Shown: one piece after another, positions 5,662 to 17,937 of the stretch
Layout: every line of letters starts with the position of its first letter
Numbering within the stretch: position 1 is the first letter of the stretch
Source: a virus
IMG/VR virus record: IMGVR_UViG_3300008952_000266
Span: 1 to 25,928 of that record
DNA length: 25,928 nt
Direction: 5' to 3' (one strand)
Translations under genes and position numbers: made by a program
The notes under the pieces: model-generated
What the model was told of the DNA's origin: nothing
Database searches by the model: none
Seen by the model: only the letters and a program-made list of their open reading frames with translations

Positions 5662-6681
5662 TCAAACGATACTTCCAAGGGCTCGGGGATTGGCCACGCG
5701 AATGGTAGCCATTGCCTCTGAGAATGCCCTTTTTCCGGCTCCGTTGTCAGGAAGATCCTGAACGGTGATGCCTTCCAAGAACTTGATCGAAACAGTGTCA
5801 TCGCCGGGGATCAGGTAAGCGCGATCAGTGTTGACCGTACCCTCAACCGTATCGGTTCCGCTTGCGCTACCGTCAACACGTCCCAAAAACAAATCGGGGA
5901 TGATGTTGATGGTGGAATAATCGGAAACGTAAGTCAGAACCGAACGAACGAGAGTTTTGCCGCTGACGTCCTGATCGAAACTAAAGTTTCCGTTGGAAGT
6001 CGTCGAGCGGGTGTAGTCCGTAATCTTGTTCATAACGGCGGGACCGGCGAACAGATTGTAAGTACCCTTTGATCCTGCGGCAGTATAAACAGCCTGGAGA
6101 AGTCCACGGAATGCGGATTCGGTCAAGCTGGCGAGAGAGACTCTCGAACCACTAACTGCACGGAAGCCCTGCTTGAGGGAAGTGTCGAAAGTGTTGCCGG
6201 TTGCAGTCGGATCAGACCATATTCCGAGTCCGGCCATCTTGGCCCCTGCGGAGGAAGTCCCTGCGGACTGATCGTTGCCCGAACCAATTGCAGTCTCGAG
6301 ACTGTTCTTCAGTTGAATCAAACTCTTGGCCTTGGATGCGGCAAAGAGAGATCCGCCAGGAGCGACGTCGATCATTTCCGCTTGGCGCGAAACAGAGAAG
6401 ATGTCGCGTAAGGTTTGCACCCTATTGCCAAGCCTTGCCCGAGTGTCGATCAAATTGGCGGCATCGGAGATCGTAAGATCGACCCCGTCGATTACTCCAC
6501 CAATTTCAGGCGAGGCGAGGCTGTCCACAAGCCACTCGTTCAGAGTAGCCTTTGGAGCGGCGGATTGTGATAAAGTTGCGAAGAGCGGGGTCTCGGTGGG
6601 CTCCACCGTGCGCAAAACATTTTCCAAATTTTCACGCGCTCCCTTCGTACTTACTACATTGTAAGATGTTGCAATAGCCAT
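5662..6681 (-). CDS. Major capsid protein, SU10-type (HK97 fold)
   Basis: The 339-residue product begins MAIATSYNVVSTKGARENLE and shows the family's N-terminal pattern: ETPLFATL at about 30-37, then NEWLVDSL at about 48-55, followed by RLGNRVQTLRDIFSVSRQAE. This arrangement is that of the SU10-like major capsid proteins (DUF5309 type, HK97 fold), which are usually 300-350 residues. It follows the scaffold gene by 34 bases and is the last gene before a strong terminator, as expected for the most abundant virion protein. AAGGAA precedes the start by about ten bases. The family call comes from pattern memory, without a search. Confidence 0.85.
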   Translation of the reverse strand: MAIATSYNVVSTKGARENLENVLRTVEPTETPLFATLSQSAAPKATLNEWLVDSLASPEIGGVIDGVDLTISDAANLIDTRARLGNRVQTLRDIFSVSRQAEMIDVAPGGSLFAASKAKSLIQLKNSLETAIGSGNDQSAGTSSAGAKMAGLGIWSDPTATGNTFDTSLKQGFRAVSGSRVSLASLTESAFRGLLQAVYTAAGSKGTYNLFAGPAVMNKITDYTRSTTSNGNFSFDQDVSGKTLVRSVLTYVSDYSTINIIPDLFLGRVDGSASGTDTVEGTVNTDRAYLIPGDDTVSIKFLEGITVQDLPDNGAGKRAFSEAMATIRVANPRALGSIV

Positions 6682-11293: not shown

Positions 11294-12919
11294 TCAATAT
11301 CCTCCTCCGCCACTCGACACCATATCCCCCTCACTGAAATATTCGAAATTTCCCACCGCAAAATATCTCGCGCAGTCTACGAAGTCCTTGCTCGGATTCT
11401 TCAAATCTCCGGGCTGATACGCTTGCATGCAACTTATGAGATTTTGGCACTCGTCCGAGAACATCAATTTAGGCTTATTCTGCAAATCCATCTCCTTGTC
11501 GCGGTCCCAAGCGAGCAAATTATTGATCGCCTGAAGACCCGTCTCGATGTCCAAAGCTTCGGCCGGTTGCACGATAATGTCCTCACCAACTAAGTCGTCT
11601 ATGATATTACTCGAGCCTTCAGCCTTCTGATACGAGGCCGCTCCAAGCCTCGGGTCGATTATCCGAATGACTTCACCGGTACATATCTTTTCCATCCTTC
11701 GAATCTCTTCAGCATAATCCTTCAATCCATACCCATTCGGTTGGGCCGCCTCACCCGGAGCCAGCTTGTCCTTGGTCAGATCAATCCATCCGCCCCAAGT
11801 ACCGAAATCAGGGAATTCCTTGACCGCCCAGGCTACCCCGTGAGCGTCAACCGCGAACAATACGATAGTCCAGGGCTTCGCTCCAGCCGGATCGATGCTC
11901 ATTACCCAGTTAGCATCCTTGAAATCAGGTAGTTTCTCGGGAGATCGAAAGTTCTTATCCGAGAGTGCCGGGAACACAGCCCTAGACTGGCGTACAGGCA
12001 CTCCATAGGCCCGGCAAAGTATCGTTTCGCGCTTCTCACCCTCGAGCTGAGACTTCATGGCCGCCCATCCGCCGAAGGGATTGGCCGCCGTATGAAAATA
12101 CACCACGCTCGAGGCTTTTCGCAAAGGTTGTTGCACAAGAGGGACTTCCTCACCTCCGAGGAGGTCCGCTTTGGCCGATTTCATCGTCCTGGCTCCCGTA
12201 AGCATCGATTTGACCACCGAGTTCCAGCCATCTACGGCCGTGAAGGAGATTATGCCCGCCGCAGGGCGGACCACTCCATCATAGAGGCTCTTGTGCGAAC
12301 GAGTTACGCAACGGAAGCGAAGGGTATTTACCCAACTCATTGGGACCAGTTCGTCGGCCCAAAAGCCTATGTTGTGAGTGCCATTGGCCGGCGGAGCGGG
12401 ACATCCGATCTCCCCGCCTTCGATTGTGCTGATGTCTTGGCTCCAATTTCGAAAGATGCACTCCGACCGGTTCGGCAAAGTGAACTTGCCAGCCGTGAAT
12501 CCATTTCGAAGCGAATACATGACGTAACCGACTTTGCCCCGTCCGAGAGATTTCATCTCCTTCGGCAAATACTTGAATATCAACTTTTGCTGAAACTGAA
12601 TGCTGTTGGCCGAGGTCTCCGTTAAGCACCAAATGATCGTGCCGGGGTTTTCAACGAGGCATTGGACTACGCGCTTGGCGCATAGCTCCGATTTCCCCGC
12701 CCGGTTTCCGCCCATAAGGAGGATCTCGGAGTGAGTCTTGAGCTCATCGTCCGCAAGCTTCCAGGTGTCGAGCTCGAAGCCATGGCGGTAAGGATCGTCC
12801 TTCTCGGCCTCTATGGCCTGCTCTCGAGTGTTGTAGTACTCGAGGATCTTTTCGGGCTCCATCCGAAGCATTTCCTCTTTCGTGAGGGCTGGGAGAGCAG
12901 GATGTGGAGTCCATTCCAT
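11294..12919 (-). CDS. terL: Terminase large subunit
   Basis: The 541-residue protein has the ATPase motor of phage terminases: Walker A GGNRAGKSE at about 70-78, and Walker B NIGFWADE ending in the Asp189-Glu190 pair. The C-terminal RNase H-like nuclease follows: the first acidic residue in MSIDPAG (Asp343), the second in IDPRLGA (Asp422), and a third in DFVDCARYF (Asp515). All needed residues are present, so it should be active in cutting and pumping DNA through the portal. It is the first gene of the leftward late operon. No ribosome-binding site precedes the ATG, and an inverted repeat lies just upstream (12928-12955), which may affect translation. Confidence 0.93.
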   Translation of the reverse strand: MEWTPHPALPALTKEEMLRMEPEKILEYYNTREQAIEAEKDDPYRHGFELDTWKLADDELKTHSEILLMGGNRAGKSELCAKRVVQCLVENPGTIIWCLTETSANSIQFQQKLIFKYLPKEMKSLGRGKVGYVMYSLRNGFTAGKFTLPNRSECIFRNWSQDISTIEGGEIGCPAPPANGTHNIGFWADELVPMSWVNTLRFRCVTRSHKSLYDGVVRPAAGIISFTAVDGWNSVVKSMLTGARTMKSAKADLLGGEEVPLVQQPLRKASSVVYFHTAANPFGGWAAMKSQLEGEKRETILCRAYGVPVRQSRAVFPALSDKNFRSPEKLPDFKDANWVMSIDPAGAKPWTIVLFAVDAHGVAWAVKEFPDFGTWGGWIDLTKDKLAPGEAAQPNGYGLKDYAEEIRRMEKICTGEVIRIIDPRLGAASYQKAEGSSNIIDDLVGEDIIVQPAEALDIETGLQAINNLLAWDRDKEMDLQNKPKLMFSDECQNLISCMQAYQPGDLKNPSKDFVDCARYFAVGNFEYFSEGDMVSSGGGGY

Positions 12920-13095: not shown

Positions 13096-13308
13096 AATTT
13101 TTTTACGGCTCTCAATCGTTTGGAGTGAAAATCCCCGGCGGTCTTCGGACCCCCTCCCCCCCCTCTCAATGTCATAAATCACATATGTTTTTCCGTAAGT
13201 CATTGATTGTCAGTAAAAGGAGGTTCGTGCAATAAGTTTTATGTCTAATTGTGATTGACCTGGAGGCTTATTGAAACTTATTCTCAACCATCTACACCGT
13301 TTGGATTT

Positions 13309-13824
13309 ATGCCGACTAAGCTTCCAAGGACGACCCATTTTCCTGACAACTTGCCAGCCAACCTCGAGGTGAAGGATACTTGCCCAGCAGTGTGGACCGG
13401 GCAAAAGCTTTACGACAAGAGACCGGCCGACTATGCCAAGTGTGTGCAAATGCTAGCTCAAGGGGCCACGATCACGCAGACCGCAAAGGCTTGCAAGATC
13501 TCCGCCAATACCGTTGCCGTAGTCCGCACTCGAGAAACCGACGTCCTCAAAGAATCAAAGAAACACCTCAAGGGATTGATCGGTACGGCAAGCATGATGG
13601 CCGTCGAGCAGATGATTGAGAAGCTCGAGAACGATCAAATCCCTGCCGGAGTTCTCCCAATCGCAACCGGGATATTGATCGACAAGCACCGGCAATACGA
13701 AGGCGAGCCTACCCAAACCATCGAGGTTAAGAAGACTCTTAGCCTGGAAGAGATAAAGGCCGAGTTGGCTACCTTAAAGGATGAGAAAGTGGTCGAGGCG
13801 GAGGTTACTGACGTAGAAACTTGA
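13309..13824 (+). CDS. Plus-strand HTH DNA-binding protein, alternative small-terminase candidate
   Basis: One of only two convincing plus-strand genes. I use the ATG at 13309 (MPTKLPRTTHFPDNLPANLE, 171 residues). The frame also opens at a TTG at 13255, and neither start has a good ribosome-binding site. An HTH lies at about residues 52-75 (GATITQTAKACKISANTVAV). A helical middle follows, with VLPIATGILIDKHRQYEGEP near 128-147, a pattern I associate with phage HTH and small-terminase-like proteins, and an acidic helical end. It may regulate the divergent promoters or recognise the packaging site. Codon use is like that of the minus-strand genes. Confidence 0.7.
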   Translation: MPTKLPRTTHFPDNLPANLEVKDTCPAVWTGQKLYDKRPADYAKCVQMLAQGATITQTAKACKISANTVAVVRTRETDVLKESKKHLKGLIGTASMMAVEQMIEKLENDQIPAGVLPIATGILIDKHRQYEGEPTQTIEVKKTLSLEEIKAELATLKDEKVVEAEVTDVET

Positions 13825-13853
13825 CATGTCATGCCCCATTCCCCTGAATGACC

Positions 13854-13906
13854 CCATGACCGACGACGCTCCATGACCGACTCGAACGCCCCCATGACCG
13901 ACGACA
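13854..13906 (+). repeat. Threefold CATGACCGAC repeat at a start codon
   Basis: ATGACCGAC occurs at 13856, 13873 and 13894. The first copy opens a six-codon frame (MTDDAP) whose TGA overlaps the ATG of the second. The second and third are in frame, so the gene begins MTDSNAPMTDDTP. It looks like a short duplication of the initiation site. Confidence 0.7.
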
Positions 13907-14115
13907 CCCCAACCTTTTCCACTCGCAAAGAGATTTTCCCTTGGGAGAAAGATTTCGACCTGGACCGGTTGGCGGAAGAATATGCCGAGATCAACGGATG
14001 GGATTTGGAGAAATGCCGACAAGAGATTTACCGGAGCATGATCCAAGTCGCTCGAGACCTGGAACCGGGTCGCTGGATCTCTTCGGAGATGGTCAAATTG
14101 GCCGGCGAGCAATAG
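13873..14115 (+). CDS. 80-residue plus-strand hypothetical protein
   Basis: The frame starts MTDSNAPMTDDTPTFSTRKE and continues with a compact helical part (FDLDRLAEEYAEINGWDLEK, then IYRSMIQVARDLEPGRW) that looks like a genuine folded domain. The start may be 13873 or the in-frame repeat copy at 13894, and neither has a ribosome-binding site. It lies 48 bases after the HTH gene on the same strand, so the two are probably one transcript. No family was recognised. The antisense frame opposite it has no protein-like features. Confidence 0.6.
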   Translation: MTDSNAPMTDDTPTFSTRKEIFPWEKDFDLDRLAEEYAEINGWDLEKCRQEIYRSMIQVARDLEPGRWISSEMVKLAGEQ

Positions 14116-14241
14116 AATCTCCCCCTATTGATCATGCCCCGGTGGAACGAGTCGAAGGATTGGCCTTTGGTCGACGTATTTCTTTGATCCGTTCGTCCGT
14201 TCGACTTGTAAATCGGGAAGCCGTGTTCTGATTTTCAAGGT

Positions 14242-14673
14242 TCATTCGTTTTTACGTGCTAGAGCGGCCTTTCGATTGGCCGAAGGTACGTTTTTACGTG
14301 CTAGGGGGTAAAAAGCCCTTCTGAGTACCTTCCTGGCGATTTTAGGGCTATATCCGTTTAGCAGACCGACATGCATTCTCAGGAATGCCCCTATAAGCCC
14401 CGTGAGCATACCTAGAAGCCCTTTGAATGTTTTACGAGGGTAATCTATCATGTCGATGCACAAAAGGCTTTTTACGAGCCAAGGGTTCTCCGAGGCAATC
14501 TTTTGATCGATGACATCCCTTTTCGATTGAATCCGCTCGAGCTTGTAGGCTATTGACCGGGGTGCATACCCATTGCCCCAGCGTAGCGGTTGGGGCAGGA
14601 GCGTGTGGCCTGCCCACCTCCTTTGGGTATGCCTCCCCTCATAGCCTCGATTTATTCTGTTTTTTCTGACCAC
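14242..14673 (-). CDS. Doubtful 143-codon frame over the structured region
   Basis: The frame opens with GTG at 14673, inside the left arm of the long inverted repeat, without a ribosome-binding site. Its first 45 codons cover the multi-stem element and give an Arg/Gly/His/Trp-rich sequence unlike a folded protein. The later part is more protein-like, with a hydrophobic stretch TFKGLLGMLTGLIGAFLRMH at about residues 82-101 and a basic end in which LARKN occurs twice, 14 residues apart, through the two 16-mer repeats. It may be a real basic membrane-associated protein with a later start, or chance. I lean to a non-coding or partly coding region. Confidence 0.3.
   Translation of the reverse strand: MVRKNRINRGYEGRHTQRRWAGHTLLPQPLRWGNGYAPRSIAYKLERIQSKRDVIDQKIASENPWLVKSLLCIDMIDYPRKTFKGLLGMLTGLIGAFLRMHVGLLNGYSPKIARKVLRRAFYPLARKNVPSANRKAALARKNE
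14247..14304. repeat. Two exact 16-bp direct repeats
   Basis: CGTTTTTACGTGCTAG occurs at 14247-14262 and 14289-14304, 42 bases apart, flanking a CGGCC/GGCCG stem. The core TTTTACGTGCTA occurs once more at 2671-2682 inside the lipoprotein gene. They may be protein-binding sites or a duplication inside a coding frame. Confidence 0.7.
14547..14647. other. Multi-stem structured element with two competing hairpins
   Basis: Nested pairings close the element: AGGCTAT (14547-14553) with ATAGCCT (14641-14647), GGGG (14559-14562) with CCCC (14635-14638), and GCATACCCA (14564-14572) with TGGGTATGC (14624-14632). Inside, TGCCCCA (14574-14580) can pair with TGGGGCA (14591-14597), or GGGCAGG (14593-14599) with CCTGCCC (14609-14615). 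These two stems share bases 14593-14597 and cannot coexist. On the plus strand a T-rich run (14651-14665) follows, so a rightward RNA could end here. The strand is not settled. Confidence 0.55.
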
Positions 14674-14726
14674 CGGTAAATGGGTATATTACCCCCCTTT
14701 AGGGGGGTTAGGATTTACCGGTGGTC
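14668..14726. repeat. 14-bp inverted repeat with inner hairpin over the end of the ATPase gene
   Basis: GACCACCGGTAAAT (14668-14681) and ATTTACCGGTGGTC (14713-14726) are perfect inverted copies. Between them ACCCCCC (14691-14697) pairs with GGGGGGT (14702-14708) around a 4-base loop, while GGGTA/TACCC (14682-14694) is an alternative small stem. The right arm encodes the last residues of the ATPase. There is no T-tract on either strand, so it is not a standard intrinsic terminator. Confidence 0.8.
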
Positions 14727-16105: not shown

Positions 16106-16969
16106 TCAGTCGTCCTTCCAATAAATGATCGGTTGCTCGGCGGCCAGTGGTTCGCCTTGCTTTCGTCTCGTCCCCCAAGGGAGCCTGCAAAGCTGGGACC
16201 CGTTTGCGAACCTGACGTCCCCGCCTAGCTTTTGGGACAGGGTCAGGAATGAATCCCTTCGTCCGGGTTTCCAATGAAACCATGCATGGAGGCTCTTCCC
16301 GCCTGACGAAACGACCATCTTGAGAGGAACGATGGACTCGAGTTGTTTGATGAGGCCGAGTTGCTGTTCGAAGGATATTGATTTGTCATCTACTTCGTGG
16401 AGCAGGTACTTGCGTTTTCCGCTTAGGTTCTGTTCGTTCCTACCGGTCGGGTTCTCGACTGACGGGTTGTGAGTGGTGTACTGGTAGGGCTTGAGGTCCA
16501 TGGTCTTCCAATCCCCTACCCTTTTGCAGAACTCGAGGGGTTTCGAATATAGCTCGGGCTGGATGAACAAGACGTCGTCATCGTGGAATAGGCCGCCAAT
16601 CGCCTCGGCCCCGCTTGACGGGATTGGATCGGACGCTAGGATGAACTCCTCGTAAGTCTCTTCATTGCCGACATATGCTTTTTGTAGCCCGGCATCGACC
16701 TGTTCTCTTTTCTTTTTTACGGTCGAGCGGTTGGGATTTGCGAGGTATTCGTAGCCCGAGAGGACAAGCTTCTTGATCTCGTTCGGTTGCTCGTCCCGAT
16801 GGTTCGAGCCGTCGAGCAGTTTGTAAATCAACTCGACTGCCTGGTCGGGATTTTCGACATACTTGCAAACGATCAAGGACAAGGGCGTGAGCACTTGGTT
16901 ATGGTGCGAGAACTCTCCTTGCGGGAGTCGCTCGAAAAAGTTTCGGAGTTCTCCTTTCAGGGTGGCCAC
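16106..16969 (-). CDS. Archaeo-eukaryotic-type DNA primase
   Basis: The 287-residue protein carries the three AEP motifs: acidic motif I in LLHEVDDKS (Glu192, Asp194, Asp195), the nucleotide-binding motif II SSGGKSLHAW (221-230) and motif III with CRLPWGTRR (261-269), where related phage primases have RLPG. The spacing between I and II with a conserved Gln (EQQLGLIK) is typical. The N-terminal 100 residues are helical and of unknown role. The GTG start overlaps the radical SAM stop as TAGTG. Placed next to the RepA-like ATPase, it should lay primers for the phage polymerase. Synthesis of long DNA by it is not implied. Confidence 0.72.
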   Translation of the reverse strand: MATLKGELRNFFERLPQGEFSHHNQVLTPLSLIVCKYVENPDQAVELIYKLLDGSNHRDEQPNEIKKLVLSGYEYLANPNRSTVKKKREQVDAGLQKAYVGNEETYEEFILASDPIPSSGAEAIGGLFHDDDVLFIQPELYSKPLEFCKRVGDWKTMDLKPYQYTTHNPSVENPTGRNEQNLSGKRKYLLHEVDDKSISFEQQLGLIKQLESIVPLKMVVSSGGKSLHAWFHWKPGRRDSFLTLSQKLGGDVRFANGSQLCRLPWGTRRKQGEPLAAEQPIIYWKDD

Positions 16970-17937
16970 TAGAGTGAGAGGGTTAGTTGATCCTTCGGAG
17001 GTTTGGATCGCATTGACGAATCATAATTTCCCCAAGCTACGAATTGGTAATATCTGCGGTTTACCCAACGCTGAAACTTTTTGAGTTCGGGATTTTCTTG
17101 GTCATAGACCATCGGGTAAGGCAGGACTCCGGCATCGTTCAGCTTGTTAAAGCGCCAAAGAATATCCTCCATCGTTTCTCCGGGCCAATAGCCTATGAGC
17201 ATGTAGACCATGATCTCTCTCGGCTTGATTCCCGCATCCATGAGGATATTCAATCCTTTGAAAAATAATTTCTCGTCCTTCGGATTATCCCATGCGGTGT
17301 GAAGTCTGCGGTATTTGAATTTCGCTTCAAAGAATTGCATCTGCTTGAGCATCATCGCCCCCTCTTCGTGAATCAGTCGGGCATTCATGCCTTGATTGAA
17401 GTTAACCTTAAAGTCACCATTGAGGATCTCCTCCGCTTTCTCCTGCCAATCCGGTTGTCCGAAGAAATCATTATCGAGCAAGATGATTTCCTTGGGGTAT
17501 GGTTCGCCTCGCCAAATCCGATTGATCGGGCCGTTATCCTTGTTCTTGCCCTCCTTGCCCGGAACTACGCAAAACTTGCAAGCCAAGCGACAACCCCGTT
17601 GGCTAAATCCAATGCTTTGCTTGAACTTCGGATATATGGAATAGTCGAAAAACTCGTAAGGGCCGCCCGTTACGTCCTCAATGGTCATCTTCGATTTCGT
17701 TCCCGTACCTCCCACTATTGCGTTTGGGAACTCGGTAAGGAATCTATCGAGCTTAGCCTTTGTCCATTGAAATATCGCAGACCCGTAAACCACGTCATAT
17801 TCGGGTTCAAAAAGTTGACGTTCCCAAGTCTTTGAAAAGTGAACCTCATCACCTTGTGACTTGTGCCAATGTGACAATTTCATCAAAGCGATATTGGGCA
17901 ATGCCCCGTCAAGCTGAGTTATTCTGATGATGGCCAC
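16969..17937 (-). CDS. Radical SAM enzyme with B12-binding-like N-terminus
   Basis: The 322-residue protein has the radical SAM cluster motif CxxxCxxC as CRLACKFC (Cys116, Cys120, Cys123). Residues 14-35 (PNIALMKLSHWHKSQGDEVH) and VVYGSAIF at about 49-56 resemble the N-terminal B12-binding-type region of COG1032 enzymes. A TIM-barrel-like body follows with EIILLDNDFFGQPDW, FNQGMNARLI and REIMVYMLIGYWPGETMEDI. The GTG start follows the HTH gene's TAA directly. The substrate is unknown. It is not QueE-like in size or context, and no queuosine genes are nearby. Being between a dNMP kinase and a primase, modification of nucleotides, DNA or RNA is a reasonable guess only. Confidence 0.85.
   Translation of the reverse strand: MAIIRITQLDGALPNIALMKLSHWHKSQGDEVHFSKTWERQLFEPEYDVVYGSAIFQWTKAKLDRFLTEFPNAIVGGTGTKSKMTIEDVTGGPYEFFDYSIYPKFKQSIGFSQRGCRLACKFCVVPGKEGKNKDNGPINRIWRGEPYPKEIILLDNDFFGQPDWQEKAEEILNGDFKVNFNQGMNARLIHEEGAMMLKQMQFFEAKFKYRRLHTAWDNPKDEKLFFKGLNILMDAGIKPREIMVYMLIGYWPGETMEDILWRFNKLNDAGVLPYPMVYDQENPELKKFQRWVNRRYYQFVAWGNYDSSMRSKPPKDQLTLSL

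Follow-up and report, generated by a model that had tools for sequence, protein, structure and literature searches.

Intrinsic (Rho-independent) terminators, including convergent and bidirectional ones, consist of a GC-rich stem with a T-rich tract directly after it on the transcribed strand, and they can sit at the end of a transcription unit that faces a convergent operon. The OOP antisense RNA of phage lambda is a short convergent RNA that ends in a stem and a U-tract, beside a replication gene. The pRNA of phage phi29, which is represented in Rfam, is a phage RNA whose fold is strongly conserved while its sequence diverges, and it adjoins packaging genes. Comparative genomics has also delivered candidate RNA motifs (e.g. 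PMC2864571) whose structure is conserved across uncultured relatives and whose function is open.

The element described here, H1, lies in the IMG/VR record IMGVR_UViG_3300008952_000266, a single virus record of 25.9 kb that was analysed over its whole length (25,928 nt, referred to as the window). H1 shares with intrinsic terminators the stem, the T-rich tract on the transcribed strand and the position facing a convergent operon, but it is 60–157 nt long, often branched and endowed with covarying inner helices instead of being a compact stem-loop; moreover, its GGCU/AGCC base is constant, its T-tract is missing in several alleles and its body is swapped. Like lambda OOP, it is convergent, has a stem and U-tract at its end, neighbours a replication gene and is potentially antisense to the opposing mRNA; unlike OOP, it lies beyond the helicase gene with no overlap (in the window, only the neighbouring palindrome H2 reaches the last codons), and this clade has no −10-like box. 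Like phi29 pRNA, it combines a conserved fold with a divergent sequence beside packaging genes, and many of its alleles have a three-way junction; on the contrary, it matches no Rfam covariance model, some alleles are single hairpins, the loops GUAGCG and CCUG of the window lack the complementarity by which R and L loops would form a ring, and the phages carry SU10-like capsid, TerL and TerS-like genes and are not phi29-like. With the candidate motifs it has in common a structure conserved across uncultured relatives, and it is set apart from them in that no Rfam 15 family reaches threshold in the window or in 14 relatives. No tRNA or tmRNA was found, and searches of the literature for structured RNAs of phages, for packaging RNA and for convergent terminators yielded nothing specific.

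Setting and anatomy of H1

The features of the window are the following:
5662–6681, leftward: SU10-like major capsid protein, structure/packaging side
11294–12919, leftward: large terminase (TerL), structure/packaging side
13255–13824, plus: small-terminase-like (TerS-like) HTH gene, essentially the sole long rightward gene
13873–14115, plus: short rightward ORF within the slot for variable cargo that separates TerS from H1
14539–14545, plus: conserved 5' flank GAGCTTG, in most clusters immediately 5' of the closing stem
14547–14647, plus: H1, the whole structured element, with a two-branched fold, recognised from fold z-score, relatives, G.U bias and compensatory changes
14547–14553, plus: 5' arm AGGCTAT of closing stem P1 (7 bp, pairing with 14641–14647), GGCT core constant
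14559–14562 and 14635–14638, plus: 4-bp stem GGGG/CCCC
14564–14572 and 14624–14632, plus: 9-bp stem P2, 5' arm GCATACCCA and 3' arm TGGGTATGC
14574–14580 and 14591–14597, plus: first 7-bp hairpin of the initial annotation, TGCCCCA/TGGGGCA
14575–14596, plus: hairpin A of the minimum-energy fold, GCCCCAGC-GUAGCG-GUUGGGGC
14593–14599 and 14609–14615, plus: second (alternative) hairpin of the initial annotation, GGGCAGG/CCTGCCC, far less stable than the minimum-energy fold
14597–14622, plus: hairpin B of the minimum-energy fold, AGGAG..CUCCU (GGAG..CTCC) with inner GUG/CAC and GG/CC
14641–14647, plus: 3' arm ATAGCCT of P1
14650–14665, plus: T-rich tract ATTTATTCTGTTTTTT after the closing stem
14668–14726, no strand: second palindrome H2, GACCACCGGTAAAT...ATTTACCGGTGGTC, whose right arm overlaps the helicase C-terminal codons
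14708–15910, minus: AAA_25 gene for a replicative helicase/primase-like protein, convergent, at the end of the replication operon

The TerS-like gene and the short ORF point rightward at the helicase gene, between two leftward gene blocks. The replication side codes for helicase/primase-like and primase-like proteins, a DNA polymerase, an exonuclease and a Holliday junction resolvase; a radical SAM domain gene (phrog_9298, 16969–17937) lies within the same cluster. The role of 13255–13824 as TerS is putative: we infer it from the adjacency of TerL and from a sub-threshold HTH_23 match. No close isolate phage was found, the helicase and the large terminase having distant matches only and TerS matching no isolate phage. 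A 112-base end overlap in the relative G014 indicates a circular assembly of about 37.1 kb, and the window belongs to a widespread family of uncultured phages of about 37 kb. Two MAG contigs that contain relatives are labelled Verrucomicrobiota and Opitutaceae, which is only a hint of a Verrucomicrobiota host. In the records G005 and G002 (loci L211 and L077), the large terminase has stops or is split in two; the assembly may be at fault there, or the genes may truly be broken.

Almost every ORF of at least 100 aa in G014 and G003 points leftward, and in many relatives differing small rightward ORFs occupy the slot between TerS and H1, which suggests that the only rightward transcription unit (the TerS-like gene and variable cargo) has H1 at its end, facing the replication operon. 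The slot (13830–14500 in the window) holds variable small rightward genes in relatives such as L005, L009 and L106; its ORF has 183 aa in L005, L008, L013, L020 and L027, and 211 or 84 aa in others. The TerS–H1 spacer of the window also contains a small hairpin with a T run (CTTTCGATTGGCCGAAGG..TTTTTA, 14269–14299), which is not significant by terminator scan, and L005 and L007 have CCCTTTTCGA..CCGAGGG forms resembling it.

The plus strand of H1 (101 nt) folds with −60.2 kcal/mol (z −5.6) and the minus strand with −55.7 kcal/mol (z −4.2); in neither case do any of 200 shuffles reach such a low energy, so that the excess over shuffled controls, which the initial annotation had proposed to look for, exists on both strands. 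No other 110-nt stretch of the window folds as strongly as H1 (−61.6 kcal/mol, the runner-up having −47.7), and the same holds for H1 in three relatives with complete or near-complete genomes (G014, G003 and G006). The nested stems of 7, 4 and 9 bp and the two 7-bp hairpins described from the letters are all where they had been placed, and the two hairpins overlap at 14593–14597, by exactly five bases. As letters both hairpins are present; the predicted fold is however a single long closed stem bearing hairpins A and B, in which the second 7-bp hairpin is an alternative only.

Conservation, covariation and strand

Hundreds of loci came out of IMG/VR scans that used the helicase, the large terminase and TerS as queries. 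Of the 102 distinct regions that border the helicase 3' end, all but the distant members L132 and L136 have a strongly folded element with a GGCT...AGCC base (100 of 102); GGCT/AGCC belonged to the detection rule, so that its constancy is partly by construction, although a listing based on the fold only gives the same ends. The position is constant, directly before the helicase 3' end and between the two convergent gene groups, and there is a single copy in 8 of 8 genomes. Clustering at 88% similarity results in 17 clusters including L132 and 16 without it; across these 16, the length goes from 60 to 157 nt and z from −3.4 to −8.4. The bodies are mostly branched, many with a three-way junction, while the 60-nt relatives are plain hairpins. 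The GAGCTTG flank has a per-position conservation of 0.70–1.0 across 23 dissimilar upstream regions and is missing from the B/C alleles (60–62 nt).

When the whole collection was searched with the pattern GAGCTTGWAGGCT...AGCCT, strongly folded matches occurred only beside this helicase, save in L333, where the match is GC-rich and due to chance; such searching of the whole collection found the form headed by GAGCTTG in this phage family only. We note that TerS relatives at about 50% identity have other strong hairpins 3' of TerS: in L136, L141 and L144 (TerS about 51%), a near-perfect hairpin AAACTATATAGGCGCGCGC...GTGCGCCTATATAGTTT follows TerS, different in sequence and similar in setting.

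Compensatory changes in related phage contigs, another check that had been put forward, were found in two allele groups. In group A1 (10 sequences) four pairs, and in group A2 (12 sequences) seven pairs, are altered on both sides with pairing kept. None of 500 shuffles reaches the covariation score; kinship can inflate such counts, so that we put weight on controls with slid partners, in which the score collapses, and on the number of different allele groups. By hand reading, P2 in L004 (TTACACCCA/TGGGTGTAA) has three base pairs changed on both sides with pairing kept, of which RNAalifold scores one because MAFFT misaligns L004, and in hairpin B of L004 the inner U-A has become G-U. These changes bear out the earlier view that selection acts on structure.

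It does not seem to act on a peptide. The minus ORF that spans H1 (14242–14673) has no match in Pfam and PHROG searches, and between close relatives the length of H1, which ranges from 60 to 157 nt, changes by numbers that are not multiples of 3. No frame is conserved, and we rejected a coding role for H1.

The selection has a polarity. In the consensus folds, G.U cells number 48 against 0, 52 against 17 and 7 against 1 (plus against minus strand), and the plus strand is the more stable in 49 of 52 elements, a difference for which base composition accounts in part. Compensatory changes together with a one-sided G.U bias indicate that the selected molecule is single-stranded and of plus polarity, very probably a rightward RNA; that it is RNA rather than single-stranded DNA is the natural reading.

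The 12 nt after the stem contain on average 6.1 T on the plus strand of the relatives and 1.6 on the minus strand. A U-rich tract follows the stem in the window, as the initial annotation had seen, and in most relatives, but not in every one: among the 16 clusters, those of L032, L070, L008 and L009 have none directly after the stem. The G.U bias, the T-tract asymmetry and the position of the cargo ORFs all agree with the suggestion that H1 belongs to the plus strand, at the 3' end of an RNA from the genes at 13.3–14.1 kb. A simple terminator scan does not list H1 because the loop limit of the scan excludes it.

Exchange of H1 together with palindrome H2

The H1 body and the adjoining H2 are exchanged as a cassette between close relatives. 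L053 (60 nt) and L027 (156 nt) are identical at 119 of 125 positions upstream, then have unrelated elements, and then match again in the helicase (424/500); homology is lost over H1 and H2 alike, which means that H2 was swapped together with H1. The types B61, C60 and D156 are intermixed on the helicase tree, and ten allele types, which are defined by length and are therefore coarse labels, need 17 changes where the minimum is 9.

In relatives, H2 lies between H1 and the helicase stop, often with a TATATAAGG-like centre and AGTAGT/ACTACT arms. It has no strand bias in relatives, which fits a role at the DNA level or in both directions. We also considered complementarity between the arms of H1 and H2 as a switch and rejected it: the 5' arm pairs slightly better with its own partner (15/19 above the row median) and the 3' arm shows nothing.

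Possible functions of H1

The requirement for H1 is generic (a strong stem, a fixed base and place, plus polarity) while the body is free, and this is best explained if H1 is an elaborate and modular 3'-end RNA of plus polarity that serves as terminator and insulator of the rightward unit. We favour this reading, at about even confidence. It accounts for the T-tract asymmetry and for the convergent setting. As RNA polymerase passes, the body of H1 would fold and its GGCU/AGCC base would close just before the U-rich tract. In most alleles rightward transcription would be stopped at H1, and in all of them H1 would cap and protect the 3' end; the rightward RNA would be kept from running as antisense into the replication operon, and H1 and the palindrome H2 together would form an insulator between the two converging units. 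Base, stem strength and position would be all that is kept, while the body (60 to 157 nt) could be exchanged freely. H1 would then be a phage 3'-end or terminator-like RNA that is unusual by its size, branching and allele exchange, and apparently new to Rfam.

Several clusters have no U-tract, which indicates that plain intrinsic termination is not the whole story, and a terminator needs neither a large, branched body nor well-kept internal loops. Since the 3'-end reading leaves these tractless alleles and kept loops unexplained, a discrete small RNA, including an OOP-like antisense RNA, is a serious rival, even if we consider it rather unlikely. Such an RNA would have its own upstream promoter, end at the U-tract and act in trans or by base pairing; in the OOP-like form, it would pair with leftward mRNA of the replication operon that has read through H2 and H1, and this mRNA would then be cleaved. 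A TAATCT/TATTCT box stands 22–25 nt upstream of H1 in 12 of 23 dissimilar flanks, where 0.3 are expected; it is −10-like and suggests that in many relatives H1 may have its own promoter. It was not found in the window's own clade, and the window has a weak promoter-like site at 14423–14451. The GAGCTTG flank, a closing stem that joins the 5' and 3' ends as in stable RNAs, and the U-tract would also suit a discrete RNA, and the minus strand has no U-tract after H1, so that leftward mRNA may read through and be its exact complement. On the contrary, no single-stranded seed is conserved across alleles, and the replacement of a 156-nt body by a 60-nt hairpin in close relatives is unlike a small RNA with fixed targets.

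It may also be, with a distinctly small probability, that H1 is not a mere transcript end but an exchangeable single-copy RNA allele that determines identity or incompatibility by sense/antisense pairing with the opposing mRNA.

It is very unlikely that H1 acts as DNA or single-stranded DNA folded on one strand, i.e. as a replication origin, a packaging (pac/cos) site or a recombination site. The TerS-like and helicase genes adjoin H1, the strand-neutral palindrome H2 lies alongside, and G.T pairs exist in single-stranded DNA too, so that the strand bias alone is no proof of RNA. However, the T-tract is polarity-specific and no integrase is among the annotated genes of the window. Candidate iterons (CGAGTGA, TTTTACGA and similar) are spread over the genome with no site-specific array, and GC skew has no clear switch at H1, so that nothing points to the replication signal that had been suggested.

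By analogy with plasmids under antisense-RNA control, H1 could be an RNA identity tag: the swapped bodies would label allele types that are incompatible with one another and would control superinfection or co-replication. Distinct allele types are indeed swapped between close backbones, and the replication operon adjoins, but there is no sign of a matching partner locus and the loops vary little within a type, which makes this reading less probable again.

Last, a two-state regulatory switch (attenuator or riboswitch), as the mutually exclusive hairpins had suggested, is the least probable reading and is rejected as the main function on grounds of energy and evolution: the alternative hairpin GGGCAGG/CCTGCCC is kept in the window, L005 and L004, but it is worse by 4–11 kcal/mol (11.3, 3.9 and 9.0, respectively), its core pairs have probabilities of 8e-8, 2e-3 and 3e-7, its letters are invariant in these only three sequences and hence show no covariation, other allele groups have no equivalent, there is no rightward gene downstream to control, and no Rfam riboswitch matches.

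In the H1 family, which is absent from Rfam, structure and place are thus selected while the body of the sequence is a replaceable module. Its alleles form a natural series in which the indispensable parts of a phage 3'-end RNA can be sought, and they bear on whether elaborate RNA ends of phages insulate converging operons or mark identity.
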